From Ramicandelaber brevisporus (Eukaryota; Kickxellomycota; Ramicandelaberales; Ramicandelaberaceae), in the NCBI GenBank assembly GCA_025201865.1, contig MU602749.1, positions 18,540 through 38,774 of the forward strand: DNA of 20,235 nt, in the 5' to 3' direction. The notes beneath the pieces are model-generated. The model made no database searches and was not told the origin of the DNA. It saw only the letters and a program-made list of their open reading frames with translations. Positions 1,588 through 19,360 of this stretch are shown piece by piece (position 1 is the first letter of the stretch; each line of letters begins with the position of its first letter). The translations under genes and the position numbers were made by a program.

Positions 1588-3612
1588 ATGTCGACCGTGA
1601 AGATCAAAACAGAGCCAGCAGCAGCAGCAGCAGCAACAGCAGTCGACGTGAAAGTCAAGCTCGAGCCGAGCCTTTCAACAGCTGATATCAAACTCGAACA
1701 GCACTCTTCAGACATTGACACCAAAGTCGAGTCTGACTCGGATGCTGGCAGCGAAGAAGACGACGAAGACAACATCAAATCTGAGAGTGACGAAGGCTCC
1801 AACCAGCACCAGGCTACAGAGGCTCCACAGCATCAACGACCCTTTATCTGCAAACATCCTGGATGCGGTCGTAGCTTCACACATATCAAGTATTTAAGAA
1901 TGCACCAGCATGAGCACACACTCCAAGCCAAGCTTAATGTACTTGGAAAGACTTACACTTTGACTCGGCAGTCATCAAATGATCGCTGGTCATGCCCAGT
2001 TACAGATTGTACATCGAAAGTCAAAACAGTTCATTCTTTATGCAATCATATGCGAATTATTCATAGCAATACCGTAAAACAACAGCAACAGCTTCAACAG
2101 CTTCCGTTTCAGAAGACTTGGAACAAACTTTATTTCCATGGTGTGGATAACTTTTATGTGAATAATGTTCGCTGTGGGTATCATAACACAACTGGGCTGC
2201 TCATTTGTCACGAATGTCGATTGGTGCCGGAATACCTGCTAACTCATTTACAGCAGAAGCATGGATATGATGAGAAATCGATTGACAATGTGTTTATGCC
2301 AGAAAGTGCAGTGAATGCAGGTGCTAATCCAAACATTAATCAGCACACCAGCAACAGTCACCTCGCTTCAGCTATTAGCCAGCCACATTTGCGACATCAT
2401 CCAGACATTATTCAAGGTTGGCTTTGTGTCACATCAGATTGCGGACATTGCTGTTATACAGCCCAGACAAAGAGTGATCATAAAAGAATAGTTCATCAGG
2501 GTAAAAAAGTGTCAACAGCTCCTGCAGTTATACTGCGCCTTTTGTTTGCCAAATCTAACGCTTGCTACTTTCTCATTACTCGCGTTGACCAAGCAAGCAG
2601 TGCTGTCACAACCAACAGTAACAAAGTGAATCAGCACAAACTCGACTACAGTCACAATCAAGTGGATACCCATGATGAGAATGGAGATGATGTCAACCAG
2701 AAAGAGACAACAGATGCATCCGTTCGAAAGAGACAATGGAAATGTGAATATCCAGAATGCGGCCGCTCCTTCAACGCATCTAATAGGCTTAGTGAACATC
2801 GGCGTGAGCACAAACTTCAGATTGCGATTAATATGCAAGGTACGACCTTTGTTATTACCCGCCAGTCCTTAGATGATCTATGGCCATGTCCAATTTCAGA
2901 TTGTGAATCAACACACGGAACAGTTAGTGCTGCTCGTCAGCATATTGAACGCGCTCACAGCACAACGATCAAACGGGAGCGTGCAAATGATGATGATGGC
3001 GATTATCAACAGCAGCAGCACCAAACCATCAAGAGGAAGCAATATACCATTCAGTATTTGAATGTGGATGATTTTTACGTTTGTGGCACTAGGTGTGGCT
3101 ATCATACTACGACTGGCATACTCATTTGTCACAATTGTCGATTGGTGCCAGAATGTCTGCTAACTTATTTAAAGCAGAAGCATGAATTTGATGAGAAGTC
3201 GATTGACAGCGCTGTTCTGCCAGAAAGTGCTAGAATTAGTGGAAGCGATCCTAATATCAATCAGCACACCAGCAATTCACATCTCGCATCAGCAATTAAT
3301 CAATTATGTCAGCATCATCATGATATTGTCCAAGGCTGGCTGTGTGTCACATCCGATTGTTTTAGTTGTGGTTATCCTATTCAGAGGAAGAATGATCACA
3401 AAAAATATACTCATCATGGTCAACATATATCGACCGTTCCTGCTCATGTATTACGATTATATTATGGAAAAGCACACAGTTCCGGTTATCTTATTACTCG
3501 GTTGAATACAATCACAAACAATATCCAATCAAACAACACGATGAGTCAATATAATAGCGAGTATGATAACGATGATGGTGAGGAATTAGTGCTGAGTGAC
3601 TACAGTGATTAA
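1588..3612 (+). CDS. C2H2 zinc-finger protein with two tandem four-finger units, OrsD-like
   Basis: 674 aa, probably a nuclear nucleic-acid-binding protein of unknown target. The N-terminal 75 residues are acidic and carry several SUMO-consensus tetrapeptides. Two homologous units follow, about 84-334 and 383-640. Each has finger 1 C-x4-C-x12-H-x3-H (88-110; 386-408), finger 2 C-x4-C-x12-H-x4-H (136-159; 434-457), a conserved block around DNFYV/DDFYV and RCGYH, finger 3 C-x2-C-x9-H-x4-H (207-225; 514-532), a nearly identical NPNINQHTSNSHLASAI block, finger 4 C-x4-C-x12-H-x4-H (280-303; 586-609), and a terminal LITR motif. The finger 3 plus finger 4 arrangement resembles the fungal OrsD/DUF3505 domain (inference from memory). 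In unit 2 the first His of finger 3 is Tyr527. The C-terminus is acidic. The ATG at 1588 is the first in frame after the CAGC repeat. No introns are seen. Confidence 0.8.
   Translation: MSTVKIKTEPAAAAAATAVDVKVKLEPSLSTADIKLEQHSSDIDTKVESDSDAGSEEDDEDNIKSESDEGSNQHQATEAPQHQRPFICKHPGCGRSFTHIKYLRMHQHEHTLQAKLNVLGKTYTLTRQSSNDRWSCPVTDCTSKVKTVHSLCNHMRIIHSNTVKQQQQLQQLPFQKTWNKLYFHGVDNFYVNNVRCGYHNTTGLLICHECRLVPEYLLTHLQQKHGYDEKSIDNVFMPESAVNAGANPNINQHTSNSHLASAISQPHLRHHPDIIQGWLCVTSDCGHCCYTAQTKSDHKRIVHQGKKVSTAPAVILRLLFAKSNACYFLITRVDQASSAVTTNSNKVNQHKLDYSHNQVDTHDENGDDVNQKETTDASVRKRQWKCEYPECGRSFNASNRLSEHRREHKLQIAINMQGTTFVITRQSLDDLWPCPISDCESTHGTVSAARQHIERAHSTTIKRERANDDDGDYQQQQHQTIKRKQYTIQYLNVDDFYVCGTRCGYHTTTGILICHNCRLVPECLLTYLKQKHEFDEKSIDSAVLPESARISGSDPNINQHTSNSHLASAINQLCQHHHDIVQGWLCVTSDCFSCGYPIQRKNDHKKYTHHGQHISTVPAHVLRLYYGKAHSSGYLITRLNTITNNIQSNNTMSQYNSEYDNDDGEELVLSDYSD
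1837..2589 (+). repeat. Intragenic duplication, unit 1 of zinc-finger gene
   Basis: Encodes residues 84-334, aligning along its length with unit 2 at 2734-3507 with an offset of about 300 residues. The most conserved stretches encode ICHECRLVPE, DEKSID, NPNINQHTSNSHLASAI and GWLCVTSDC. The linker between units (335-382) is not conserved. Confidence 0.85.
2734..3507 (+). repeat. Intragenic duplication, unit 2 of zinc-finger gene
   Basis: Encodes residues 383-640. All four fingers of unit 1 are recognisable in the same order and spacing. Differences include a longer Lys/Gln-rich linker after finger 2 and replacement of the first finger-3 histidine by tyrosine (codon TAT at 3166-3168 against CAT in unit 1). 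Divergence at third positions suggests an old duplication. Confidence 0.85.
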
Positions 3613-4498: not shown

Positions 4499-6997
4499 AT
4501 GCGACGACGACGCGACTCGTCACCTTCTCGACTCGTTTCTTTCGCACTCTATTTACTCACGGCTGCAGTTGCTATTGTTAATGCCAAGATTACCGTGTTC
4601 AACAGTTCGCAGCCCACTGCTCCTTCTGCACTTGACCCGGCATTCTCGCTGCCGTCGTATCAATTCTTTGGCTGGCCCGAACTCACGTTTGACACATTTT
4701 CGGGTCCATTATTGCGCGCCAAGTTTGTGAACGACTCTGCTCATCAATGCCGTCTTGAAGTCAGCTTTGACGGTGCGCTCCCACGTTTCCCCACTCTGAA
4801 GCCACTCCAAGCCAACGACACCGGCAAAACAGAGTATGCACATGGCTACACTAAAGACATGCGCACCTCATTGTTGATTTGGAGCTGGCCCAGGTGGTGC
4901 ATCGGCTACAGTTTCATCGCTCCACAGCTTGCTGGCTTGAAACAGACTTTGCAGGCTGCCAATTTGCCGCCACCTGGATTAGCAGTGTTCAAAGGGTTCC
5001 GGCCAATTGACAAGCCAAAATCAGATGAGTTTGGCGGGCCGTTTGGAAACACATATGGCGACCCAACAAAGATGATGGAGAAGGCAATTGAAACCACATC
5101 TCTTGAAAAGCAGTATTTGGAATGGCAGCGCCGCTCTCGTCCACCATCTTCAACTGACAATGCAAACACGGGAAAGAATGAGAGAGATGATGTGACAAAG
5201 AACTTTGGTGAATGGGGCGGTGGGTATCCACGCTTTTTGGACTGGCACTTTGCGCTTGCAGCGGATGAGCGTCTCAACTGGGCCAGCGCCAACTCAACTG
5301 AGCCAATCATGGTGACCATTGAACATGACTATGGGATCTGGAACACAAAATGGCAGACTGACGATCATGTGGTGATTACTTGGGTTATAAATGGTCTCAA
5401 CATTGCTTTGGTTTTGGCCATGCTGGTTCACGTGTGGATTACGTATGGCAAGCATGGATGGTCATCACCAGCCAACAAACGCCGTGAGCAGCTTAAAGAG
5501 CAGCTCAAGCAACAACAAGACCAACAGCAACAGCAACAACAGCAACATGTACTGGCATCAAGGAATGGAGCAATGGGCAAAAGTATGCCAGTGTCGGATA
5601 TCAGCTATCATGGTAGTGCGACAGCAGCATTATCTCCACGTCAACATCCGTATCAGCTGCATAACGATGACAGCAATAACCAGTATCCACAGCTACCACC
5701 ACCAGCTAGAGGGCAGTTCCCATCTCATTCTAGCTCTCCAAACAATACTGCCACTCCGGAAGGCACTTCTAAAGACACTGCCCAGTCTCCATTACAGCCA
5801 GCTCCGGCCGATGCGATTGTCCATTTGAACTTCTACCGCGTTGCAATGGGTGTCATCTCGCTCGTGTTTGCCATCGGCTTGATTCCGCTGCCAACCACCC
5901 ACACCTTTTTCGAGACCTGGAAGATCACCGTCAGCTACATTATTGCATTCATTGGTTACTCTTCAGAAATCTTCCTGGCAATGGCAATGGTGCACATGAT
6001 GAACTCCATCTATCCACGCCCCATCCTCTCCCGCATTTGCAACATTTTGCTGTGGATTCACATGATGTGTACATTTTTGGCGCTCGCGATTGTGCCATTT
6101 GCCAGAATCCTCGAGATCCACTACCCAATTGACTACACGCTGGTGTTTGGAATGTTCATGCCGCTGATCTCGTTGATCATGTCGTATGGCTGGTGTATAT
6201 TTTTGAGCATTACATTCTACAGGAACTTGCGGCGGCTGCGTGCACGAGCTTCGAAGCACCATGTCCGCGACATTCACATTGTGACAATTGCCACGTACTC
6301 TGCAATGATTTGGATGACAGTGTTTGCAGCGTTTTTGGCATTGGTTAGATCGTATCAATTAAGCTACAAATTGCACAGAACGTTGAGCATTCTGCTGTTA
6401 CTGAGTACAGTATTTACAGTGGCGAGCATCTTTGCATCAATCTATTCGTCGGACATGGCCAGAGGTTTGGATGGAGACAGACTGGAATACTGGCCGGTGG
6501 ATGCACCGCCTGTTACGGATGGCAGTGTGCTGGATGACTGCGAGAGGCAGCAGTTGGCTGAGCATCAAATGAAGCAGGAGCAGATTCAGCAGGAGCAAAG
6601 GCAGCAGCAGCAACAACAGAAGCAGCTCAAAGCCATCGGCGCTGGCAGTGGACATGTGCGGCAGACGAGCGACACCTATACGGATGGCGCAGGTGCTTGT
6701 GAGGACTATCAGTGGGGAATTGGCATGGTGCCGCTTGCCGACGAAAGTCGTAGAGAGTTGCGGAATCCGCTGGTTGACCATCTCCAGCAGCTCGACAATG
6801 CCATTCCAGCGGATATGAACTCACAGTGGTACTCACAAGTGCCGTCGTACACATCATTCAACAGCAATGCACTGCCTCCATTGTCTCTACAGTCTCCACT
6901 GAGTCCGCCACCTCCAGCTGCCGCTACCACGACTCCAGAAACCAGTAGCAGTCGCGAGGCTGACTGGGTCAAACTTCATGTTAATAATCAATACTAA
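4499..6997 (+). CDS. Seven-transmembrane protein with secreted N-terminal ectodomain, unknown family
   Basis: 832 aa from the ATG at 4499, which has A at -3; the in-frame GTG at 4484 is not a credible eukaryotic start. A basic N-terminus plus hydrophobic stretch ending VNA (about 1-29) looks like a signal peptide. Residues 30-288 form an ectodomain with NxS/T sites near 35, 78, 106 and 265 and a Trp-rich centre. Hydrophobic helices lie at about 291-316, 446-464, 475-500, 514-537, 545-573, 592-618 and 627-649. The loop between helices 1 and 2 is unusually long (about 130 residues) and holds a polyglutamine run (338-349) and low-complexity Ser/Pro/Asn sequence. The ~180-residue tail is also Gln-rich. 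Topology (ectodomain outside, seven helices, cytosolic tail) is GPCR-like, but no receptor family motif was recognised, so function is open. AATAAA follows the stop by about 23 nt. Confidence 0.75.
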   Translation: MRRRRDSSPSRLVSFALYLLTAAVAIVNAKITVFNSSQPTAPSALDPAFSLPSYQFFGWPELTFDTFSGPLLRAKFVNDSAHQCRLEVSFDGALPRFPTLKPLQANDTGKTEYAHGYTKDMRTSLLIWSWPRWCIGYSFIAPQLAGLKQTLQAANLPPPGLAVFKGFRPIDKPKSDEFGGPFGNTYGDPTKMMEKAIETTSLEKQYLEWQRRSRPPSSTDNANTGKNERDDVTKNFGEWGGGYPRFLDWHFALAADERLNWASANSTEPIMVTIEHDYGIWNTKWQTDDHVVITWVINGLNIALVLAMLVHVWITYGKHGWSSPANKRREQLKEQLKQQQDQQQQQQQQHVLASRNGAMGKSMPVSDISYHGSATAALSPRQHPYQLHNDDSNNQYPQLPPPARGQFPSHSSSPNNTATPEGTSKDTAQSPLQPAPADAIVHLNFYRVAMGVISLVFAIGLIPLPTTHTFFETWKITVSYIIAFIGYSSEIFLAMAMVHMMNSIYPRPILSRICNILLWIHMMCTFLALAIVPFARILEIHYPIDYTLVFGMFMPLISLIMSYGWCIFLSITFYRNLRRLRARASKHHVRDIHIVTIATYSAMIWMTVFAAFLALVRSYQLSYKLHRTLSILLLLSTVFTVASIFASIYSSDMARGLDGDRLEYWPVDAPPVTDGSVLDDCERQQLAEHQMKQEQIQQEQRQQQQQQKQLKAIGAGSGHVRQTSDTYTDGAGACEDYQWGIGMVPLADESRRELRNPLVDHLQQLDNAIPADMNSQWYSQVPSYTSFNSNALPPLSLQSPLSPPPPAAATTTPETSSSREADWVKLHVNNQY
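5500..5546 (+). repeat. CAG/CAA glutamine tract in the 7TM protein
   Basis: Encodes the glutamine-rich run at residues 334-349 (one Lys and one Asp near the start) in the loop between predicted helices 1 and 2. Mixed CAA and CAG codons. Confidence 0.75.
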
Positions 6998-7019
6998 CAA
7001 CGTTACATTAGTTCCTTTC

Positions 7020-7025
7020 AATAAA
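7020..7025 (+). terminator. Polyadenylation signal AATAAA of the 7TM gene
   Basis: Canonical hexamer about 23 nt after the TAA at 6995-6997. The convergent snoRNA host transcript probably ends in the same neighbourhood on the other strand. Confidence 0.6.
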
Positions 7026-7259
7026 CATTCTAATCGGTATTCATACCTCTATCCAGCATACTACGAGTGCAAGTAAAAGTGCATCATAAAATACAAAACA
7101 TTAATAATTACATTACATTAAAAGGTGGTTTAAAGTACAACAAGTTTAATTCTGTTCAAACAGATATACACAATACAATGTAAGACAACATTGGTAATGA
7201 AATTTGTCAGTACAAATGTGTTATTGGAGAAACATCTAACATCATTGTAACCAATAAAG

Positions 7260-7355
7260 GAGGTTCAGAATAATGCCAGAATTAGGTTTACAGGCGGTTT
7301 CATCAACGAATAGATCTATGCTGACCGTCGTGATAAAAAGTGTTCATCATGATAA
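7260..7355 (-). ncRNA. snR73: Box C/D snoRNA, snR73/U35-like (25S C2959)
   Basis: Box C is ATGATGA at 7350-7344, a C'-like TTGATGA lies at 7306-7300, and box D is CTGA at 7268-7265. The guide TCACGACGGTC (7333-7323) pairs over 11 nt with universally conserved 25S GACCGUCGUGA. If D' is the degenerate CATA (7320-7317), the fifth nucleotide (7325) faces C2959, the yeast snR73 and vertebrate U35 target. The terminal stem is not obvious, so ends are approximate. A donor GTAAGT lies at 7387-7382, and the final branch point and acceptor follow at 7212-7206 and 7153-7152. Confidence 0.83.
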
Positions 7356-7486
7356 GCTGCCAACTCTGGCGAATGCTTGATACTTACCATTCATTAATTC
7401 AGTCAAGTTAGTCAGTAATACTTGTAAAAATGCAAATATACAAATATAGCTAATCCACTACACTTATTTCATAGTAAAAAAAGAAT

Positions 7487-7577
7487 GGGGATCAGACACA
7501 ATTTAATGTCTGCACGGCTGCACAAAGGCAACTCAGACATATGCTTGTCAATTTTTAAATGTTGCTCATCACATCAA
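7487..7577 (-). ncRNA. snR74: Box C/D snoRNA, snR74/U27-like (18S A28)
   Basis: Box C is GTGATGA at 7572-7566, D' CTGA at 7536-7533 and box D CTGA at 7495-7492. The guide GACAAGCATATG (7549-7538) is complementary over 12 nt to the 5' end of 18S rRNA (CAUAUGCUUGUC). The fifth nucleotide before D' (7541) faces A28, the residue guided by yeast snR74 and vertebrate U27. No convincing terminal stem was seen, so both ends are approximate. A donor ATTG/GTATGT lies about 45 nt upstream. The sequence upstream of box D matched no rRNA I could recall. Confidence 0.85.
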
Positions 7578-7730
7578 CACAAAAGATGCAAACAATGAGT
7601 AAACCACAAATTACATACCAATCTGCAGATATTAAAACAGTAAACAAAAGAGGAGAGAATAAAACTCAAATGTCAGCCAAATACTGCAACCAAACAGAGA
7701 TACACCAGTGCAATCTGTACACTATATTAT

Positions 7731-7833
7731 GCTCATAGAAGTATCAGTAATGCATGAATGGTTATTTAAAGATGGTGTCGACAGCGAGAAACTCTTCCGA
7801 CTCGTCATCTAATAATGGGTTCATCACTTGAGC
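7731..7833 (-). ncRNA. snR75: Box C/D snoRNA, snR75-like (25S G2288), possible second target
   Basis: Box C is GTGATGA at 7827-7821, D' CGGA at 7799-7796 (three of four consensus) and box D CTGA at 7747-7744. The guide ATTAGATGACGAG (7813-7801) pairs over 13 nt with 25S CUCGUCAUCUAAU, and the fifth nucleotide (7804) faces G2288, the yeast snR75 target. Before box D, CCATTCATGC (7761-7752) pairs over 10 nt with 25S GCAUGAAUGG, only 19 nt further along the same rRNA segment; its fifth nucleotide faces G2307. A terminal stem GCTCA (7833-7829) with TGAGC (7735-7731) is possible but set back from box D. Intron 4. Confidence 0.87.
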
Positions 7834-8078
7834 TACAGTGTAAACAACCACGCAGAATAGAGTTACATACCATTGCAAAAATCAATCAATCAATCAATTA
7901 TACACAAGCAAGCACTTGCAAGCTGCTACAATTACAATAATACCTCTACAAACTACAGGAATACATATACATATACATATATACACAAGCAAATCGAGTT
8001 ATATCCATGTCAGTATAAAAAGCAGTCATATTAAGGTGGCACAATGTTCTCACAAAATACAGTGATAATGACTGACTA

Positions 8079-8201
8079 AGAAGGAATGGCTGAGATCAGG
8101 TAAGCGACAAGAGAATGTCAGTAATCTTGCCTAAATTAGCACTTTTCAACACGAGTTGTCAGTGCCCAGTGCGTTTCATCATTTCAGGTCACATTCCTTC
8201 T
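8079..8201 (-). repeat. 10-bp inverted repeat bracketing the snR76-like snoRNA
   Basis: AGAAGGAATG (8201-8192) and CATTCCTTCT (8088-8079) are perfect complements on the minus strand, separated by the snoRNA. Together with the CTGA/TCAG pairing nearer the boxes they form a long external stem. Such stems bring box C and D together in intronic snoRNAs. Confidence 0.8.
8090..8187 (-). ncRNA. snR76: Box C/D snoRNA, snR76-like (25S C2197)
   Basis: Box C is ATGATGA at 8182-8176, D' a perfect CTGA at 8162-8159, and box D CTGA at 8099-8096. Directly next to D', GCACTGGGCA (8172-8163) pairs over 10 nt with 25S UGCCCAGUGC; the fifth nucleotide (8167) faces C2197, the yeast snR76 target. The ends are closed by CTGA (8187-8184) with TCAG (8093-8090), extended by a perfect 10-bp stem, AGAAGGAATG (8201-8192) with CATTCCTTCT (8088-8079). 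A CTGA at 8121-8118 is an alternative box D but lacks this geometry. Intron 3. Confidence 0.87.
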
Positions 8202-8361
8202 CAAAATCAGTCAATAGTGCAGCCAATACTGTTGAATCAAAATACATACAATTACTACAATACATTAACAAGTCAATTCAAAATAGATAGACAAATATAG
8301 ACAAATTGTCAGTATAAACTATAAGCTATAGGTAGATGAGCAAACTATGCTGTTATAGAAT

Positions 8362-8477
8362 GACCAGGTTTCAGCAGTAAGAGGAACAGTGCAGCAAAAT
8401 TATCGTCAGCGAGCCAACCAGGGGGTCAGCTCTTGGACGGTAATTCCAGTTTATTGTGCATTTTCATCATCTTGGTC
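8362..8477 (-). ncRNA. snR77: Box C/D snoRNA, snR77-like (18S U578)
   Basis: Box C is ATGATGA at 8470-8464. The preferred box D is CTGA at 8374-8371, because flanking GACCA (8477-8473) pairs with TGGTC (8366-8362). The element CTGGAATTACCG (8449-8438) is complementary over 12 nt to the universal 530-loop sequence CGGUAAUUCCAG. With a degenerate D' CCAA (8436-8433), the fifth nucleotide pairs with U578, the yeast snR77 target. Internal CTGA motifs at 8429-8426 and 8409-8406 make the exact 3' end less certain; 116 nt is long for this family. A second element, ACTGTTCCTCT (8390-8380), is complementary to the sarcin-ricin loop region. It lies in intron 2. Confidence 0.82.
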
Positions 8478-8759
8478 TAAAGAGTTGCAAGAGTAGGCGA
8501 CAGTGTATTACCACCACTCGAAGCAGAGATTGAGAAACATACCATTGTAACGAGTAGAGAGAGAATTACAAGCGTGCCATGCTAAAACACAGCTTATGAG
8601 CACACTGTTAATACACAAACATCAGTCTGATCTACACGGAAATAAGTGGACAAAGCAAGCAAACACAAAAAAGCAAGCAGGAGAATAGCAAAGAGTGTTT
8701 GTCAGCAAGCACTGTAGATACAAGGCAACCAACACACGTTCAAACGTGTTCGTGTTGGG

Positions 8760-8866
8760 AGGATCAGCACAAGAGTTTATAATCACCGAAGACAGACCGC
8801 ACTTTGGCTGATCTGCCTCGTAAGAGACTCTAGTTTGAAAAATGGTTGTAGATATCCTCATTTCCT
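8760..8866 (-). ncRNA. snR78: Box C/D snoRNA, snR78-like (25S U2421)
   Basis: Box C is ATGAGGA at 8861-8855 (one mismatch to RUGAUGA) and box D is CTGA at 8767-8764. A short terminal stem (AGGA 8866-8863 with TCCT 8763-8760) sits directly against both boxes. The antisense element TCAAACTAGAGTC (8838-8826) is complementary over 13 nt to conserved 25S rRNA GACUCUAGUUUGA. D' is CTTA (8824-8821), so the fifth upstream nucleotide (8829) pairs with U2421, a 2'-O-methylated residue guided by snR78 in yeast. A C'-like GTGATTA lies near 8783. The guide upstream of box D matched no rRNA I recall. It lies 50 nt inside intron 1. Confidence 0.85.
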
Positions 8867-9080
8867 GCAAAGCAAAACTAGACAATGCAACAAACGACCG
8901 TGCCTGCCACACATACAGTTGTGTTGTTGTAATAAAGAAGAAGATGCAAAAAGAAGAAAGATGAATGAATGAATATGCTGTTGCTGTTGCTGCTGTTATC
9001 GTGAATTGAATTGAATGAGTATATCTGTAAGGAAAGAAAGAAACAAGGAGTGTGTTGCTCTCAACATGTTTCACAAAAAT

Positions 9081-9121
9081 ACGCGCGCATGCACACACGC
9101 ATGCACACGCACGCACACGCA
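9081..9121. repeat. Alternating purine-pyrimidine CG/CA tract
   Basis: About 40 bp of almost strictly alternating CG and CA steps, including two GCATGC palindromes. It lies in the upstream part of the snoRNA host gene, on the transketolase-promoter side. Sequences of this kind favour left-handed DNA under negative supercoiling (general knowledge); function here is unknown. Confidence 0.6.
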
Positions 9122-9239
9122 TTCTCTCGCCTGCAAATTTTTCATAGTTGGTTTTTAATAACGATTTGGGGCTGCTGGCATTACTAAAACAACGGACCCG
9201 AACGTGGCCGAGGTGTTCGCGGATTGGCCGAACCTGCAT

Positions 9240-9431
9240 CGAACGACCAACCCATAAAATAAGTAGTGACTCCTTCGCCTGAACGCAACATCAAAACACA
9301 CGAGTCCAGTCGATTCGAGCAGACCAGACACCAGCCGATATCCATCCATCCATCCATCCATCCCACCTAAATCCTCAACTCCAATCCAAATACTTTCTTC
9401 CCTCTCAGCCGATACAAACGTCCTGTTGCAA
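9240..9431. promoter_or_regulatory. Shared divergent promoter region, snoRNA host and transketolase
   Basis: Separates the leftward snoRNA host from the rightward transketolase. An inverted CCAAT (ATTGG) lies at about 9223-9227 and an AT-rich CATAAAATAA at about 9252. A (TCCA)5 repeat runs 9341-9363 in the presumed transketolase leader, followed by a CT-rich stretch before the ATG. The start sites are not determined from sequence. Confidence 0.45.
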
Positions 9432-11489
9432 ATGACTGCCGCTCCAGCCATCGACGACTTGTGCATCAATACGGTGCGCACTCTTGCCGCCGACACCGTC
9501 CAGGGTGCCAACTCTGGCCATCCAGGCGCTCCAATGGGCTGCGCGCCAATGGCTCATCTGCTGTTCAGCAAGTACATCAACTGCGACCCGTCCGACTACA
9601 AGTGGCCTGCTCGTGATCGCTTCGTGCTGTCCAACGGCCACGCGTGCGCTCTGCAGTACGTTATGCTGCACCTGCTTGGCTACGATAGCGTCAAGGTCGA
9701 GGACCTCAAGCAGTTCCGCCAGTGGGGCTCCACCACTCCGGGCCATCCAGAGAACACCCATACCCACGGTATCGAGGTGGCAACCGGCCCGCTCGGCCAA
9801 GGTATCTCGAACGCAGTTGGTCTGGCCATGGGCGAGGCACATCTGGCCGCCGTGTTCAACAAGCCAGGCTACGAGAACCTCGTCAACAACTACACGTATG
9901 TCATCCTGGGCGATGGCTGTCTCCAGGAGGGTGTCTCTGCCGAGGCTGCGTCTCTTGCCGGCCATCTGAAGCTCGGCAAGCTCATTTGCCTGTATGATGA
10001 TAACAACATCACCATCGATGGCGAGACCGAAATCAGCTTTACCGAGAATGTCGAGGAGCGCTTCCGCTCGTACGGCTGGCACACCACCCACGTGGATGAT
10101 GGCAACTCTGATTTGGCTGGCCTTATCAGCGCCATTGAGGAGTCCAAGGCCGTCACCGACAAGCCATCGCTGATTCGCGTCAAGACCGTTATCGGCTACG
10201 GCTCGGCCAAGCAGGGCACCGAGGGTGTTCACGGCGCTCCACTCGGCGCTGCTGACATCGTCAACGTCAAGACCAAGTTCGGCTTCAACCCAGAGGACTA
10301 CTACTTTGTCCCAGCTGCCGTCCGCAGCTTCTACGCCGACGTCCGTGCCCGCGGCCAGCAGAAGCACGCCGAATGGAACAAGCTCTTTGCTGCCTACGAG
10401 CAGGAGTATCCAGAGCTCGCTGCCGAGTTCAAGCGCCGTGTCATTGAGGGCAAGCTGCCAGCCAACTGGGCCGACAAGCTGCCAAAGTACACTCCAGAGG
10501 ACAAGCCAGTCGCCACCCGCAAGCTGTCCGAGAACGTTCTGAACGCCATTGCCGAGAACATCCCAGAGCTCATTGGTGGCTCTGCCGATTTGACCGGCTC
10601 CAACCTGACCCGCTGGAAGTCTGCTGTTGATTTCCAGCACCCATCCACCAAGCTGGGCGACTATGCTGGCCGCTACATCCGCTTCGGTGTCCGTGAGCAC
10701 GGTATGTCTGCCATCTGCAACGGTCTGGACGCCTATGGCGGCATCATTCCATTCGGCTCCACCTTCCTCAACTTCATCACCTACGCCTGGGGTGCCGTCC
10801 GTCTGTCTGCTCTTGCTGAGCGCGGCGTGATCTACATCATGACCCACGACTCCATTGGTCTCGGCGAGGATGGCCCAACTCACCAGCCGATTGAGACTCT
10901 GGCCCTGCTCCGTGCCACTCCAAACATGCTCACCCTCCGTCCAGCCGACGGCAACGAAGTGTCTGGCGCTTACATTGCTGCCCTTGAGCACCGCCGCACC
11001 CCATCGGTCCTGGCTCTCACCCGCCAGAACCTGCCCCACCTTGCCGGCTCCTCCGCCGAGAAGGTCCTCCTGGGTGGCTACACCCTGGTTGACGCCGGTA
11101 CTCCAGACGTTGTTCTCGTTGGCACTGGCTCTGAGGTCCATCTGTGCGTTGATGCTGCCGCCAAGCTTGCCGCTTCTGGCGTCAAGGCCAACGTCGTGTC
11201 CATGCCATGCACTGAGCTGTTCGACAAGCAGAGCTTCGAGTACCGTCGCTCCGTGTTCCCAACTGGTGTTCCAGTTTTGTCCGTTGAGTGCATGTCCACC
11301 GAGACTTGGCACAAGTACTCTCACGCCCAGATTGGTCTGGATCGCTTCGGTGCTTCTGCCCCAGCTCCTCGCATCTTCAAGGAGTTTGGCTTCACTGCTG
11401 AGAACATTGCCGCCAAGGCCGATGGTCTCGTCAAGTTCTACAAGCAGTCTGGCCGCGCTGTTGGCGACCTCGTTGACCGCTTCCACTAA
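9432..11489 (+). CDS. TKL1: Transketolase
   Basis: 685 aa, close to the ~680 aa of yeast Tkl1 and collinear with it throughout. It transfers two-carbon ketol units between pentose phosphate pathway sugars using thiamine diphosphate and a divalent metal, in the cytosol. Visible features: GHPGAP with His30, NGH at 68-70, TGPLGQG at 118-124, the ThDP-binding GDG (160-162) through DDNN (189-192), VHGAPLG with His267, REHGM with the cofactor-activating Glu422, HDSIGLGEDGP from His472, and THQPIE with His484. All catalytic positions are present. The start is the ATG at 9432 (AAA before it), not the in-frame TTG at 9426. Codon use is strongly biased (CCA for Pro, AAG, GAG, GGC, CTC/CTG), as expected for a highly expressed gene. 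It is convergent with the Rho GEF and divergent from the snoRNA host. Confidence 0.97.
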   Translation: MTAAPAIDDLCINTVRTLAADTVQGANSGHPGAPMGCAPMAHLLFSKYINCDPSDYKWPARDRFVLSNGHACALQYVMLHLLGYDSVKVEDLKQFRQWGSTTPGHPENTHTHGIEVATGPLGQGISNAVGLAMGEAHLAAVFNKPGYENLVNNYTYVILGDGCLQEGVSAEAASLAGHLKLGKLICLYDDNNITIDGETEISFTENVEERFRSYGWHTTHVDDGNSDLAGLISAIEESKAVTDKPSLIRVKTVIGYGSAKQGTEGVHGAPLGAADIVNVKTKFGFNPEDYYFVPAAVRSFYADVRARGQQKHAEWNKLFAAYEQEYPELAAEFKRRVIEGKLPANWADKLPKYTPEDKPVATRKLSENVLNAIAENIPELIGGSADLTGSNLTRWKSAVDFQHPSTKLGDYAGRYIRFGVREHGMSAICNGLDAYGGIIPFGSTFLNFITYAWGAVRLSALAERGVIYIMTHDSIGLGEDGPTHQPIETLALLRATPNMLTLRPADGNEVSGAYIAALEHRRTPSVLALTRQNLPHLAGSSAEKVLLGGYTLVDAGTPDVVLVGTGSEVHLCVDAAAKLAASGVKANVVSMPCTELFDKQSFEYRRSVFPTGVPVLSVECMSTETWHKYSHAQIGLDRFGASAPAPRIFKEFGFTAENIAAKADGLVKFYKQSGRAVGDLVDRFH

Positions 11490-14700: not shown

Positions 14701-16860
14701 TGACCATAGTCTCGGCGGAGGCGGTGCTGTTGAGGCTGGCGGAGGTGGTGCTGCTGCTGCCAGTGTCGCTGTAGCAGTCACTGTTGATTGCGGTGCTGGT
14801 GTCACTGGTGTTGTTGCTGATGGAGGTGATGCTGGATTGCTTACTGATACTGTAGCTGGAACTGCAACAACCTCACTAGTGGGAAGTGAGACTGAAAATG
14901 GAAGCACAGGTGGTGACTCTGATAGTGAAGCTGTAGCCATCTTAACCGAGGCTGGAATTGGCATTGGCATTGGAGGCTGCGATTGTGGGAGAGAAGCTGG
15001 CGGTTTGCTAGGTGTGCTTGAGCTGCGCTTCTTTTTCTTTTGCTTCTGAGATGCATATTGCTGCTGCTGTGATTGTGAATGTTGCTGTGATTTAGTGGAT
15101 GGCTGGACAGAGCGGAATGGACAACTTGGGCTGTAGCATCTAGAATCACGAGGGCATGTTGGCGAATAGCAATTTGATGTCAATGTAAACACTCCTGTAG
15201 GCAGTCCAGTTAATGACGCCTTTTCCAATGTACCGCCAGAGTTTCTATCCAAGGGAGTGATTGGTGGCAGCACTCTATTGTACCCATCGCTGGTTGACAT
15301 TGTGTTAGTAGCCTGCTGTTGTACTCTAATTGGATCGATCTGAGTAGATTCAAGAGCTGCATTAAACATGTAGATTTCAGACTGGTCATCTCTCAGCATG
15401 TGTTCATATGCAACATCATAAAAATACATTTGCTCTTCCAACGCACGTCCGAATGCCACTGCAGTCTTTCTATCTGGTGATTGCAATAGTGAGCATAATA
15501 CATCAACTGCATGTCTGCCATTAAATGAGTTTGGATATTCAACTCCTGCACGTGAATTGACTGTTAGTTGGACTTTGCTGCGGAATGCAATGGCTACTCT
15601 GCTCAGTAATGCTGGATTAAATGGTTGAAGTTGAAGAGAAGTCGGCGTAATGGCTGTGGAAGGCGTGCTGCCACTCATTGGATGTGAGTCAGAGTCTTTT
15701 CGTCCAGAGTAAACCATGGCTGATGCTGACCTAGAGTGACTGATAGTAGTTGGCCATATAGACTCAATCTGCTGCGATTGTGGCTGCGTTGATGATAGTG
15801 GCTGTGGCTCTTGATGCTGATATATCTGCGGTTGCGATCGAGGCTGCTGCTGCTGCCGTCTTTGTTGCTGTTGCTGTTGCTGCTGTTGTTGTTGTTGCGG
15901 TCTTTGTTGCGGTTGTTGATATTGGTGTTGCTTTGATTGATCCGACCGCTTCGGAATGATAATTGGAGGAGGTGGATTCGAGAGTCGCTTCGAGGATGTT
16001 TGGCTTGTGCCGATTGAGCCATTTGACATTTGAGGCCTGAGCAGATTTTGATTTGCGAGAGCTGGCGGCACAGGAGACTCTGTAACTGATGTCGATTTCA
16101 CATTGGGACTAAAATGGCTCATCAAATCATCTTCCAAGCTGATTCCGGGTATATCCACATCAAGCATCAACCCACTACTCTGCTTCAAACCATCAACCTC
16201 TTCATCCTCCTGGTATTGCTGTGCTTCTTCAACCAATTGTGGCTGTGGCGGCTGCGGCTGATGAACGATGCCCATAGCATCATCAATGACCAGTGCACCA
16301 ACTTTCCTTGCTGCTTTACTCACTGCCATTGACAAGTCATCGCTAACGCGTCCACCAGTTGGCTCCCATGTTGATAACAGTCCAACTTGAACGTGCGGCT
16401 GAGAGGAGTGCTGATACGACGGAAGAGCATTGTGATTGTGAGGGTTACCAGTTGATATCACTGCACCGCCACGCGGTCCTGCTGCAATCGAAGAATAAGT
16501 TCCTGACATAGGTGCACTGCTGTAACCTCCGGTGTAGCCACTATACTCACTCGTCTCATACGGATTATAGTGTCCGCCAAGTCCGGTGCGCTGCTGAGCT
16601 GCAACCGCTGCAGCCACAGTCGCTTGCCGATATGGGTGCTCCAGTTGCTGGTGGTGCTGTTGCTGTTGCTGTTGCTGGTGCTGTTGCTGGTGCTGGTGCT
16701 GGTGCTGGTGCTGGTGCTGGTGCTGGTATTGCTGCTGCTGCTGGACAGAGGGTGGCTGTTGTCTCAAGGCAGATTGAGGAGGAGTCGAATGAAGAGCATA
16801 GCGCGCACCTCCCTGACTCGCCATTGCCGACGCAGATGCCTGACGAGGCCTCGAGTCCAT
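11728..16860 (-). CDS. Rho1 guanine nucleotide exchange factor, Rom2/Rgf1 family (DEP-DH-PH-CNH)
   Basis: 1710 aa, uninterrupted. Rom2/Rgf1 proteins activate Rho1 at the plasma membrane, driving glucan synthesis and the cell-integrity MAPK pathway. The first ~415 residues are low complexity with His-Gln and polyglutamine tracts (40-72; 322-339). A DEP domain lies at about 418-500 (TGR-like NGRHAVDVL, DRKTAVAFGRALEEQ, RDDQSEIYMF). A Cys-rich linker with two CYSPxCP motifs (564-581) is typical of fungal homologues as I recall them. Pro/Ala/Ser sequence leads to the DH domain at about 735-930 (DSEKEYLDDF; SRPFTRLPKYVLFLEGILK). The PH domain starts at about 950 but is split by a ~130-residue Ser/Gly/Ala insertion (1025-1155) before its terminal helix AERREWISAI. 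A CNH domain spans about 1205-1520. The last ~190 residues are Ser/Pro-rich. Coding of the DH region (about 13840-14640) is visibly more AT-rich than the flanks. Confidence 0.95.
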   Translation of the reverse strand: MDSRPRQASASAMASQGGARYALHSTPPQSALRQQPPSVQQQQQYQHQHQHQHQHQHQQQHQQQQQQQHHQQLEHPYRQATVAAAVAAQQRTGLGGHYNPYETSEYSGYTGGYSSAPMSGTYSSIAAGPRGGAVISTGNPHNHNALPSYQHSSQPHVQVGLLSTWEPTGGRVSDDLSMAVSKAARKVGALVIDDAMGIVHQPQPPQPQLVEEAQQYQEDEEVDGLKQSSGLMLDVDIPGISLEDDLMSHFSPNVKSTSVTESPVPPALANQNLLRPQMSNGSIGTSQTSSKRLSNPPPPIIIPKRSDQSKQHQYQQPQQRPQQQQQQQQQQQQRRQQQQPRSQPQIYQHQEPQPLSSTQPQSQQIESIWPTTISHSRSASAMVYSGRKDSDSHPMSGSTPSTAITPTSLQLQPFNPALLSRVAIAFRSKVQLTVNSRAGVEYPNSFNGRHAVDVLCSLLQSPDRKTAVAFGRALEEQMYFYDVAYEHMLRDDQSEIYMFNAALESTQIDPIRVQQQATNTMSTSDGYNRVLPPITPLDRNSGGTLEKASLTGLPTGVFTLTSNCYSPTCPRDSRCYSPSCPFRSVQPSTKSQQHSQSQQQQYASQKQKKKKRSSSTPSKPPASLPQSQPPMPMPIPASVKMATASLSESPPVLPFSVSLPTSEVVAVPATVSVSNPASPPSATTPVTPAPQSTVTATATLAAAAPPPPASTAPPPPRLWSTTVPRNVVESVSKDELKRQEMIFELIDSEKEYLDDFKVLRDVYIKPLRSEEIIPQSHRARFVESVVFNVLHIMSISNHFWKDLAARQKQSHIVSNIGDIIRKFVRMFEPYVAYCANQPYAKYHVDFEAGRNQTFNTFLREAERLPQVRRLTIHSFLSRPFTRLPKYVLFLEGILKRTQPDSPDAHDLPLAISELRLLLSKINKEVGVAHNKLRLNTIYSSLHCDESDLEMLDLRNPRRLFIREGILKRRSAVDTFELTIFLFDHMILLARPKKSKDTGQIIEYKIYKQPIPLDMLTFSVLDPLPSITASTAAATAPASPLSPGGILSSPHSIGRRLLSSRASSSGLSANLNPPATSSGSGGGGDSTSSRSRLFALKGATSSVLKLGNYNNSSSQSGSSALADNGRDSFSVNASTIAGPGGLMAAAVGGASGASRQPSPLTLTITHLGRHGSVHTLTASSIAERREWISAIQAAQSKLIARRQRFDFVAVSSIELPLSNRVNCTALFDDNRKIAVGTDQGIYVGVDGHPNSFVRMKVQIDYVKQIIILEQFNIVLIRTSRENALWTFQMDALEWTAHDPPKGRKVATGINFVRSGECSGRMFVVQVQTSSNMTIGRIYEPLLVQPKARDRDKHRSTMGFGRLLGASPPEVLKKHRDFYIPSESRSVHFLRTRLLIGCKRGFEMLDPDTLQSQSLLNPDDESLRFVMDMEHVWPLEIFRLVTGEFLVCYDLLAFMVDRVGRRVNPGWTIYWDGTPSSFAYHHPYIMAFDSRFVEIHNIETGALTQVVPLDRCSSLLPSNAPVIHCVSTSIPQTVGATAAAKSMSSSNGLQQQQHPLESLFAPNSDDHSHRLQRRLSSATFQSINEHSAHPTATYPLGSGSPSSPSAGGVSSDRVSVSSPVTTSTTPNPTTIQAFTAATSPPPYSTSPHSAYSAPLPPTSLPLHGSGGNANSGVEMQVIYKIVYTGEPASANNLDGLGDEDDGDDTNGAPVLG
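15843..15898. repeat. Polyglutamine-coding CTG/TTG tract in the Rho GEF
   Basis: Mixed CAG/CAA codons on the coding (minus) strand encode glutamine runs around residues 322-339, broken by Arg pairs. Codon mixing lowers slippage compared with a pure CAG tract. Confidence 0.75.
16651..16743. repeat. TGCTGG hexamer / CTG repeat coding His-Gln and Gln tracts
   Basis: On the coding strand it reads as CAC-CAG (His-Gln) repeats flanked by CAA/CAG runs, giving residues about 40-72 of the Rho GEF. The hexamer TGCTGG is nearly perfect over about seven consecutive units (16685-16727), so length variation between strains is likely. Confidence 0.85.
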
Positions 16861-18391: not shown

Positions 18392-19360
18392 ATGCACTCT
18401 GTAGCAGCTGCTCTTCTTCGGGGACCGTCTCGGTTTCGGTTTCCAGCTCGCGTTTGTGCCTCTTCCTTACAAATCTCGAGCTCATTTCGGAATATAACAC
18501 GCGTCGCAACAAACTTCACCACCACCTCGCCGACCTCGTTCGCTGCTGCTCGCTACTTCAGTACCACCATACCAAGACCAGAAATGCGCGTCGTCACCCT
18601 CCCAATCTTCCAGGACAACTACAGCTACGTCATCTTTGACGACGCCACCAAGAAGGCAGCCGTTGTCGACCCTGCCGAAGCCTCTAAAGTTCTCCCGCAG
18701 CTCAAGACACTCGTCACTGACCAGGGCTATGAGCTGACCCACGTGCTGACCACTCACCATCACGCCGACCACGCCGGCGGTAACGAAGCTGTTGCCGACG
18801 CGTATCCTGGCATTGCTGTTGTGGGTGCCGATAAGCGCGTTAATGCCATTACTGCTCTCGTTAATGATGGCGCAGAGTTCAAGATTGGCGGTGTCAATGT
18901 CAAGTCGCTGCTGACTGTTGGCCACACTACGGGCCACGTGTCGTTTTACGCAACTCCAGCTGAGCAAAACTCTGTGCCAGCTGCAGTGTTTACCGGCGAC
19001 TGTCTCTTTTTGGGTGGATGTGGTCGCTTCTTTGAGGGTACTCCAGAGGACATGTACAAGTCGCTCATTGAGATTCTGGGCAAGCTCCCGAAGGATACCA
19101 AGGTTTATTGCGGACACGAATATACTCGTGGAAACTACAAGTTTGCCTTGTCGGTTGATGGCCAGAATGCTGATTTGATCAAATTGAACGAGGCTGCCAA
19201 TGCGACCGAGATTACCGTGCCAGGCACTATTGAGAATGAGCTCAAGGCTAATCCATTCATGCGCGTTCATGAGCCGGCTCTTCAGGCGTCCACCGGCAAG
19301 ACTGATCCAATTGACGTCATGGCCAAGTTGCGTGAGCTTAAGAACAACTTTCGCGGTTAA
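18392..19360 (+). CDS. GLO2: Hydroxyacylglutathione hydrolase (glyoxalase II), mitochondrial and possibly cytosolic
   Basis: 322 aa. Glyoxalase II hydrolyses S-D-lactoylglutathione to D-lactate and glutathione, the second step of methylglyoxal detoxification. Residues 1-64 are rich in Arg, Ser, Ala and Thr without acidic residues until Glu64, a typical mitochondrial presequence. The conserved enzyme begins at Met65 (MRVVTLPIFQDNYSYV). The metallo-beta-lactamase motif THHHADHAGG (121-130) supplies His122, His124, Asp126 and His127; further ligands are His178 (VGHTTGH), Asp203 (TGDCLF) and His242 (CGHEYT). The C-terminal substrate-binding NPFMR (287-291) and Lys/Arg tail are present. The first ATG (18392) has C at -3, whereas Met65 (18584) has G at -3, so leaky scanning could yield a cytosolic form. 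It converges on the nucleoporin gene with 92 bp between stops. Confidence 0.95.
   Translation: MHSVAAALLRGPSRFRFPARVCASSLQISSSFRNITRVATNFTTTSPTSFAAARYFSTTIPRPEMRVVTLPIFQDNYSYVIFDDATKKAAVVDPAEASKVLPQLKTLVTDQGYELTHVLTTHHHADHAGGNEAVADAYPGIAVVGADKRVNAITALVNDGAEFKIGGVNVKSLLTVGHTTGHVSFYATPAEQNSVPAAVFTGDCLFLGGCGRFFEGTPEDMYKSLIEILGKLPKDTKVYCGHEYTRGNYKFALSVDGQNADLIKLNEAANATEITVPGTIENELKANPFMRVHEPALQASTGKTDPIDVMAKLRELKNNFRG

Follow-up and report, generated by a model that had tools for sequence, protein, structure and literature searches.

A minus-strand locus in the window, the 20,235-nucleotide stretch of Ramicandelaber brevisporus DNA analyzed here, is very probably fungal snoRNA cluster I, carried by a non-coding UHG-like host gene in which each of six introns bears one box C/D snoRNA. 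Between positions 8866 and 7262 of this strand lie six box C/D snoRNAs in the order snR78-77-76-75-74-73, and all six minus-strand units with guides of 10–13 nt claimed by the original prediction were recovered there. Observed here are their boxes and guides, the target register of the guides on yeast rRNA, the order of the units, the splice-like signals around them and a control intron required by the reading frame of another gene. A host transcript would be transcribed from the minus strand and spliced, the intron lariats would be debranched and trimmed to six snoRNAs, and these would bind the C/D proteins and fibrillarin and direct 2'-O-methylation of six conserved rRNA nucleotides. The units are listed below with the basis of each assignment; targets are D'-minus-5 positions in yeast numbering.

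8760..8866, minus strand: snR78 orthologue (25S complementarity and position); box C ATGAGGA 8861-8855, box D' CTTA, box D CTGA 8767-8764; guide TCAAACTAGAGTC at 8838-8826, 13 nt against yeast 25S; target 25S U2421.
8362..8477, minus strand: snR77 orthologue (guide, Rfam SNORD65, stem); box C 8470-8464, box D' CCAA, box D 8374-8371; guide CTGGAATTACCG at 8449-8438, 12 nt; target 18S U578.
8113..8196, minus strand: snR76 orthologue (guide, Rfam SNORD88, stem); box C 8182-8176, box D' CTGA, box D 8121-8118; guide GCACTGGGCA at 8172-8163, 10 nt; target 25S C2197.
7742..7829, minus strand: snR75 orthologue (Rfam RF01185 and guide); box C 7827-7821, box D' CGGA, box D 7747-7744; guide ATTAGATGACGAG at 7813-7801, 13 nt; target 25S G2288.
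7490..7575, minus strand: snR74/U27 orthologue (guide, Rfam SNORD27); box C 7572-7566, box D' CTGA, box D 7495-7492; guide GACAAGCATATG at 7549-7538, 12 nt; target 18S A28.
7262..7357, minus strand: snR73/U35 orthologue (guide, Rfam snR73); box C 7350-7344, box D' CATA, box D 7268-7265; guide TCACGACGGTC at 7333-7323, 11 nt; target 25S C2959.

Box D is CTGA in all six units and box C follows RTGATGA in five, the exception being the ATGAGGA of snR78. A terminal stem is formed by GACCA/TGGTC in snR77 and a stem by GAATG/CATTC in snR76, and the AGGA/TCCT arms of the snR78 unit could form a closing stem. Box D' is a perfect CTGA in two units (snR76 and snR74) and degenerate in the other four (CTTA, CCAA, CGGA and CATA). 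The guides were compared with pieces of yeast rRNA, and their exact Watson-Crick lengths against these pieces are, from snR78 to snR73, 13, 12, 10, 13, 12 and 11 nt. When the target is taken as the fifth base from box D', it coincides with the known yeast site in six of six units, as had been predicted, with the register fitted in the four units whose D' is degenerate. The targets of snR76 and snR74 are unambiguous because their D' is perfect, whereas the degenerate D' of snR78, snR77, snR75 and snR73 means that their registers were fitted to the known site rather than predicted. For snR78 an alternative D', CTCT, would place the target two bases further on and was dropped in favor of CTTA, which is closer to CTGA and gives U2421. 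Within snR75 a second 10-nt complementarity to 25S, at 7761-7752 on the minus strand and about 20 nt from the guided site, is also present in the Rfam consensus and possibly represents an accessory pairing.

The position of 18S A28 was counted from the 5' end of the yeast 18S piece, and the target base of snR77 is one we take to be 18S U578. Methylation sites of yeast snR78-snR73 were taken from a table in PMC8307265, with which the two 25S pieces agree at 24/24 and 8/8 base identities, anchors included. A search of the assembly for 5.8S, the 5' end of 18S and the 3' part of 25S did not find the rRNA of R. brevisporus itself, the rDNA seems to be missing from the assembly, and the guides were therefore tested against yeast rRNA only. 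Among other sequences, one (L004) begins as eukaryotic LSU, and four (L005-L008) are contigs of bacterial MAGs that carry a 28S stretch on their very edge, perhaps 28S-inserted retroelements from host DNA; an rRNA scan of L005-L007 gave no match, and none of the five entered the guide counts.

Comparison with Rfam, covering like the reading itself the minus strand around 6600-9600, bore out the prediction for snR75 and in part for four further units. The snR75 unit matches RF01185 at 64.6 bits (E = 2.3e-11) over 7742-7829, above the gathering cut-off of 40, and is the sole match to this family reported in the genome (56 of 1952 candidates scored). Matches that do not reach the cut-off were obtained for snR77 (SNORD65, 26.0 bits, E 0.013, cut-off 41, with an inner CTGA used as box D), snR76 (SNORD88, 25.3 bits, E 0.013, cut-off 46), snR74 (SNORD27, 28.0 bits, E 0.056, cut-off 52) and snR73 (snR73, 32.6 bits, E 0.007, cut-off 37). 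All four fall on the expected unit, with guide stretches that agree with the consensus. SNORD88 is presumably the RNA also called HBII-180, and a table of N. crassa snoRNAs pairs snR76 with human HBII-180 (PMC2780460). No Rfam snoRNA match at E<=10 was obtained for the snR78 unit, whose assignment is therefore by guide and position only. At E values up to 10 there are 19 matches around the cluster, mostly chance, and the five families are followed by a miRNA family at E 0.1. The order of the units, their target sites and the snR75 match above cut-off together support the predicted orthology with the yeast cluster.

Collinearity with the yeast snR78-snR72 array had also been proposed, and it holds for six members, in identical order on one strand, but not for the seventh member of the yeast polycistron, snR72, which was not found in R. 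brevisporus. Its target register is taken to be at 25S A876. Across 8950-7200 there is no complementarity of at least 9 nt at A876, and a single 9-mer to that rRNA piece, at 7997, pairs elsewhere on it. A box-C-like ATGATG near 7245 with a TACTGAC after it at 7212 was weighed as a possible seventh snoRNA and dismissed, since it has no A876 complementarity and the TACTGAC fits the branch site of intron 6. Genome-wide, three A876-guide patterns gave 0, 0 and 1 hit, parts of the genome sequence reading N; the lone hit is not credible, being antisense to an open frame that resembles the zinc-finger protein of the window and having Rfam matches all far below cut-off. That zinc-finger-like protein (1588-3612, plus strand) has internal similarity and a related open frame on contig C96 (L041), and perhaps belongs to a lineage-specific family. 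The N. crassa arrangement, in which the double guide CD5 unites the functions of snR78 and snR72 (PMC2780460), was likewise rejected, the snR78 unit of R. brevisporus having no A876 guide. snR72 has been lost from the cluster in most fungal species (PMC3596301).

Splice-like signals surround every unit, and the introns predicted from them are as follows.

8632..8916, minus strand: predicted intron 1 (snR78); GTATGT 8916, branch site TGCTGAC 8707, 3' splice site TAG 8632.
8255..8542, minus strand: predicted intron 2 (snR77); GTATGT 8542, branch site TACTGAC 8314, TAG 8255.
7953..8249, minus strand: predicted intron 3 (snR76); GTATGT 8249, branch site TACTGAC 8015, TAG 7953.
7623..7870, minus strand: predicted intron 4 (snR75); GTATGT 7870, branch site GGCTGAC 7678, CAG 7623.
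7357..7618, minus strand: predicted intron 5 (snR74), uncertain; GTATGT 7618, branch site TACTGAC 7417.
7152..7387, minus strand: predicted intron 6 (snR73); GTAAGT 7387, branch site TACTGAC 7212, CAG 7152.

Each unit sits, as claimed, behind its own 5' splice site, a GTATGT or GTAAGT 37-72 nt before box C (55, 72, 67, 43, 46 and 37 nt in introns 1-6); in N. crassa the reported distance from the 5' splice site is for the most part 41-60 nt (PMC2780460). From box D to a CTGAC-type branch site the distances are 60, 60, 106, 69, 78 and 56 nt, and from the branch adenosine to the AG they are 70, 54, 57, 50 and 55 nt in introns 1, 2, 3, 4 and 6. The signals are clean in introns 1, 2, 3 and 6 and weak in intron 4, which has the weakest branch site of the six and in which a GAG at 7665, 8 nt after the branch, was passed over. 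The 3' splice site of intron 5 is ambiguous: no YAG occurs from the branch site to the next 5' splice site, and the first YAGs past the branch (7366 and 7357) fall inside intron 6. Intron 5 could instead end upstream of this branch site, at TAG 7458 or 7450 or at AAG 7421, and use a different branch site, or it could end at an AG of the last exon that lies 115 nt away once intron 6 is removed. Predicted inner exons measure 89, 5, 82 and 4 nt, the 5-nt exon (8254-8250) preceding intron 3 and the 4-nt exon (7622-7619) following intron 4. By these splice-like signals, the cluster snoRNAs of R. brevisporus are supported as putatively intron-encoded. A transketolase gene next to the cluster runs divergently from the snoRNA host gene, and the two may have a promoter region in common across 8916-9426; apart from itself, this transketolase has its best named matches, of 65-68%, among chytrids and Mucoromycota.

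Combinations of splice-like motifs were fewer in the sampled contigs than in the same kind of count on reversed sequence (51 vs 199, and 34 vs 155 in a second count), and they therefore lend no support to introns elsewhere in the genome. Because these counts were uninformative or contrary, the RPL7 intron was taken as the control for splice signals. The reading frame of RPL7 (L039, G000:C195) is kept only with an intron of the form ...GCCAAGAAG|GTATGT ... TTTACTGACACTG ... CAG|GCTGCC, and the signals of this one control intron, GTATGT...TACTGAC...CAG, are those that flank the cluster units. It contains a C/D RNA (L039 1949-2040, minus strand) that matches Rfam snR39 at 29.6 bits (E 0.016), below the cut-off of 40, and that is an snR39/snR59 orthologue; an RPL7 snoRNA intron is conserved in most fungi (PMC8476143).

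The genome of this Kickxellomycotina fungus comprises 17.9 Mb in 510 contigs. Seven of nine CCT/Cpn60 family matches cover the domain within one open frame; of the other two, one is partial and lies inside a 3218-aa frame, and one places 50 profile-end positions in a 102-aa frame that may represent one exon of a split gene. The Prp8 PROCN domain, whose presence counts in favor of the spliced reading of the cluster, is encoded within a single 2697-aa frame, and four of the seven window frames scanned hold their domain (transketolase, RhoGEF/CNH, PSF2 and glyoxalase-II-type) in a single frame, the other three having weak or no Pfam matches. Protein genes of R. brevisporus thus appear mostly uninterrupted in what is a small sample and not a genome-wide intron count.

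One possible alternative, which we hold to be the less likely, is that splicing of the cluster is real and its details differ: there would be fewer introns, some containing two snoRNAs, and the 4-5 nt exons would be passed over in splicing or would not exist. Exons as short as the predicted 5 and 4 nt are hard to define, and exon skipping in cluster I is known in N. crassa and Candida parapsilosis (PMC2780460, PMC5033589). Against this, a branch-like site and a 5' splice site accompany each unit separately, and tiny or absent exons are known in other fungal snoRNA hosts (PMC3596301). We also advance, as a speculation more doubtful still, that the host gene keeps six introns in a mostly uninterrupted genome and that introns 5 and 6 overlap, with splicing either ordered or mutually exclusive; past the snR74 branch site, the only 3' splice sites at ordinary spacing are those within the snR73 intron. 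Were this so, either intron 6 would be removed first and intron 5 would then use the last-exon AG about 115 nt from its branch, or one transcript would give snR74 or snR73 and never both. Nested and stepwise splicing and vanishing exons are known in other fungal snoRNA clusters (PMC5033589, PMC3596301), and alternative splicing of N. crassa snoRNA hosts was described by Liu et al. 2009 (PMC2780460).

It is improbable that the six are real snoRNAs which, as happens in S. cerevisiae, RNase III frees from a polycistronic precursor that is not spliced, with the GTATGT motifs as relics. Intron 5 has no clean 3' splice site, as would suit such a precursor, and the sequence to either side of snR78, within intron 1, can be folded into hairpins (minus strand, 8758-8729 at -10.1 kcal/mol and 8920-8876 at -12.7 kcal/mol). 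These hairpins are, however, ordinary for their composition (z -1.46 and -1.58, with 19 and 16 of 200 shuffles folding equally well) and were rejected as RNase III sites, being no better than shuffles allow. Regularly spaced 5' splice sites and branch-like sites, six of each, also speak against it, and the motifs exceed the genome background: minus strand 8922-7145 holds five GTATGT where 0.31 are expected and five TACTGAC (one of them the snR76 box D) where 0.06 are expected. Regular and enriched signals that recur in the frame-required RPL7 intron suggest that they have been kept by selection. RTGATGA is also enriched over the same interval (5 observed vs 0.71 expected).

The background for complementarity was drawn from 21 other stretches of this genome (L002 and L009-L028, of which L020 and L022 are wholly N), where 31 positions in 345,752 strand-bases without N have a 10-mer that is complementary to one or another of the six site windows. 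The 1.78 kb cluster region would therefore be expected to hold about 0.16 such positions, and in it all six site windows are matched on a single strand and in yeast order. The plus strand of the window has no such 10-mer, and the minus strand has a single stray outside the cluster region, at 15303. Outside the cluster the window contains 14 rRNA matches of at least 10 nt in 36,968 strand-bases, and at 19249-19266 (plus strand) an 18-nt exact complementarity to yeast 25S lies within a hydroxyacylglutathione hydrolase coding sequence and is taken as coincidence. Complementarity length alone is a weak criterion, and the case for the predicted cluster is made by boxes, register, order, strand and Rfam match combined. 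That the region is a spacer holding chance look-alikes of conserved rRNA is vanishingly improbable, since chance can yield long complementarities such as these but is opposed by the E value of the snR75 match and by six sites found in order against the 0.16 expected.

The assignment to cluster I with one snoRNA per intron places R. brevisporus beside fungi already described. Luo et al. 2013 define snR78-77-76-75-74-73-72 as cluster I and report it in nearly all fungi analyzed. They place it within introns in Euascomycetes, Basidiomycota and Rhizopus oryzae, and mostly so in other Hemiascomycetes and Archiascomycetes; in S. cerevisiae and its close relatives it is not spliced at all (PMC3596301). 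R. brevisporus resembles the Euascomycetes, Basidiomycota and R. oryzae in members and order, in a predicted arrangement of one snoRNA per intron and in a host RNA without a long ORF. The six N. crassa homologues CD5, CD24, CD12, CD7, CD21 and CD31 guide the corresponding rRNA positions, are intron-encoded and all lie on chromosome VI, with UHG-like cluster hosts; the human homologues tabulated with them are, from snR78 to snR73, U52, HBII-135, HBII-180, U15, U27 and U35 (PMC2780460). Spliced cluster I is also reported in Candida parapsilosis and relatives (PMC5033589). The S. cerevisiae snR78-snR72 polycistron shares with R. brevisporus the order and target nucleotides of the six members, but is unspliced and freed by Rnt1p and exonucleases (PMC5033589), whereas the R. 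brevisporus units are flanked by splice signals. Members of cluster I have been lost or moved in some fungi, so that full collinearity is not universal (PMC3596301): R. oryzae and Archiascomycetes are without the snR76 intron, whereas R. brevisporus has snR76, and in some Basidiomycota snR78, snR75 and snR72 have moved and snR73, snR74, snR76 and snR77 are lost, whereas six are together in R. brevisporus.

The original prediction set intron encoding against the yeast exonic polycistron as the norm, and this contrast does not stand, intronic cluster I having already been published in many fungi (PMC3596301, PMC2780460, PMC5033589). Nor is intron hosting new, and published work already accounts for the contrast with yeast, ascribing the unspliced state to decay of splice signals and presuming it to be correlated with genome intron density (PMC3596301). 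New here are the lineage, the few sampled genes being mostly uninterrupted and the overlap that the snR74 and snR73 introns may have. Kickxellomycotina are absent from the species list of Luo et al. 2013 (PMC3596301), and a search of the freely readable literature by titles and abstract starts (snoRNAs or the cluster in chytrids, early-diverging fungi, Coemansia and Ramicandelaber, and intron-poor fungi) found no paper describing cluster I in the R. brevisporus lineage. By the papers cited here, a Kickxellomycotina fungus thus joins the lineages with a described cluster I. The genome offers an example of snoRNA-bearing introns, the predicted ones of the cluster and that of RPL7/snR39, being retained where most of the protein genes sampled lack interruptions; if the tentative proposal of six retained introns is true, loss of cluster introns would be uncoupled from low genome intron density, contrary to the presumption of Luo et al. 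The R. brevisporus cluster fits intron hosting as the older fungal state and corrects the view of the yeast exonic polycistron as the reference, intron hosting being usual and baker's yeast exceptional.
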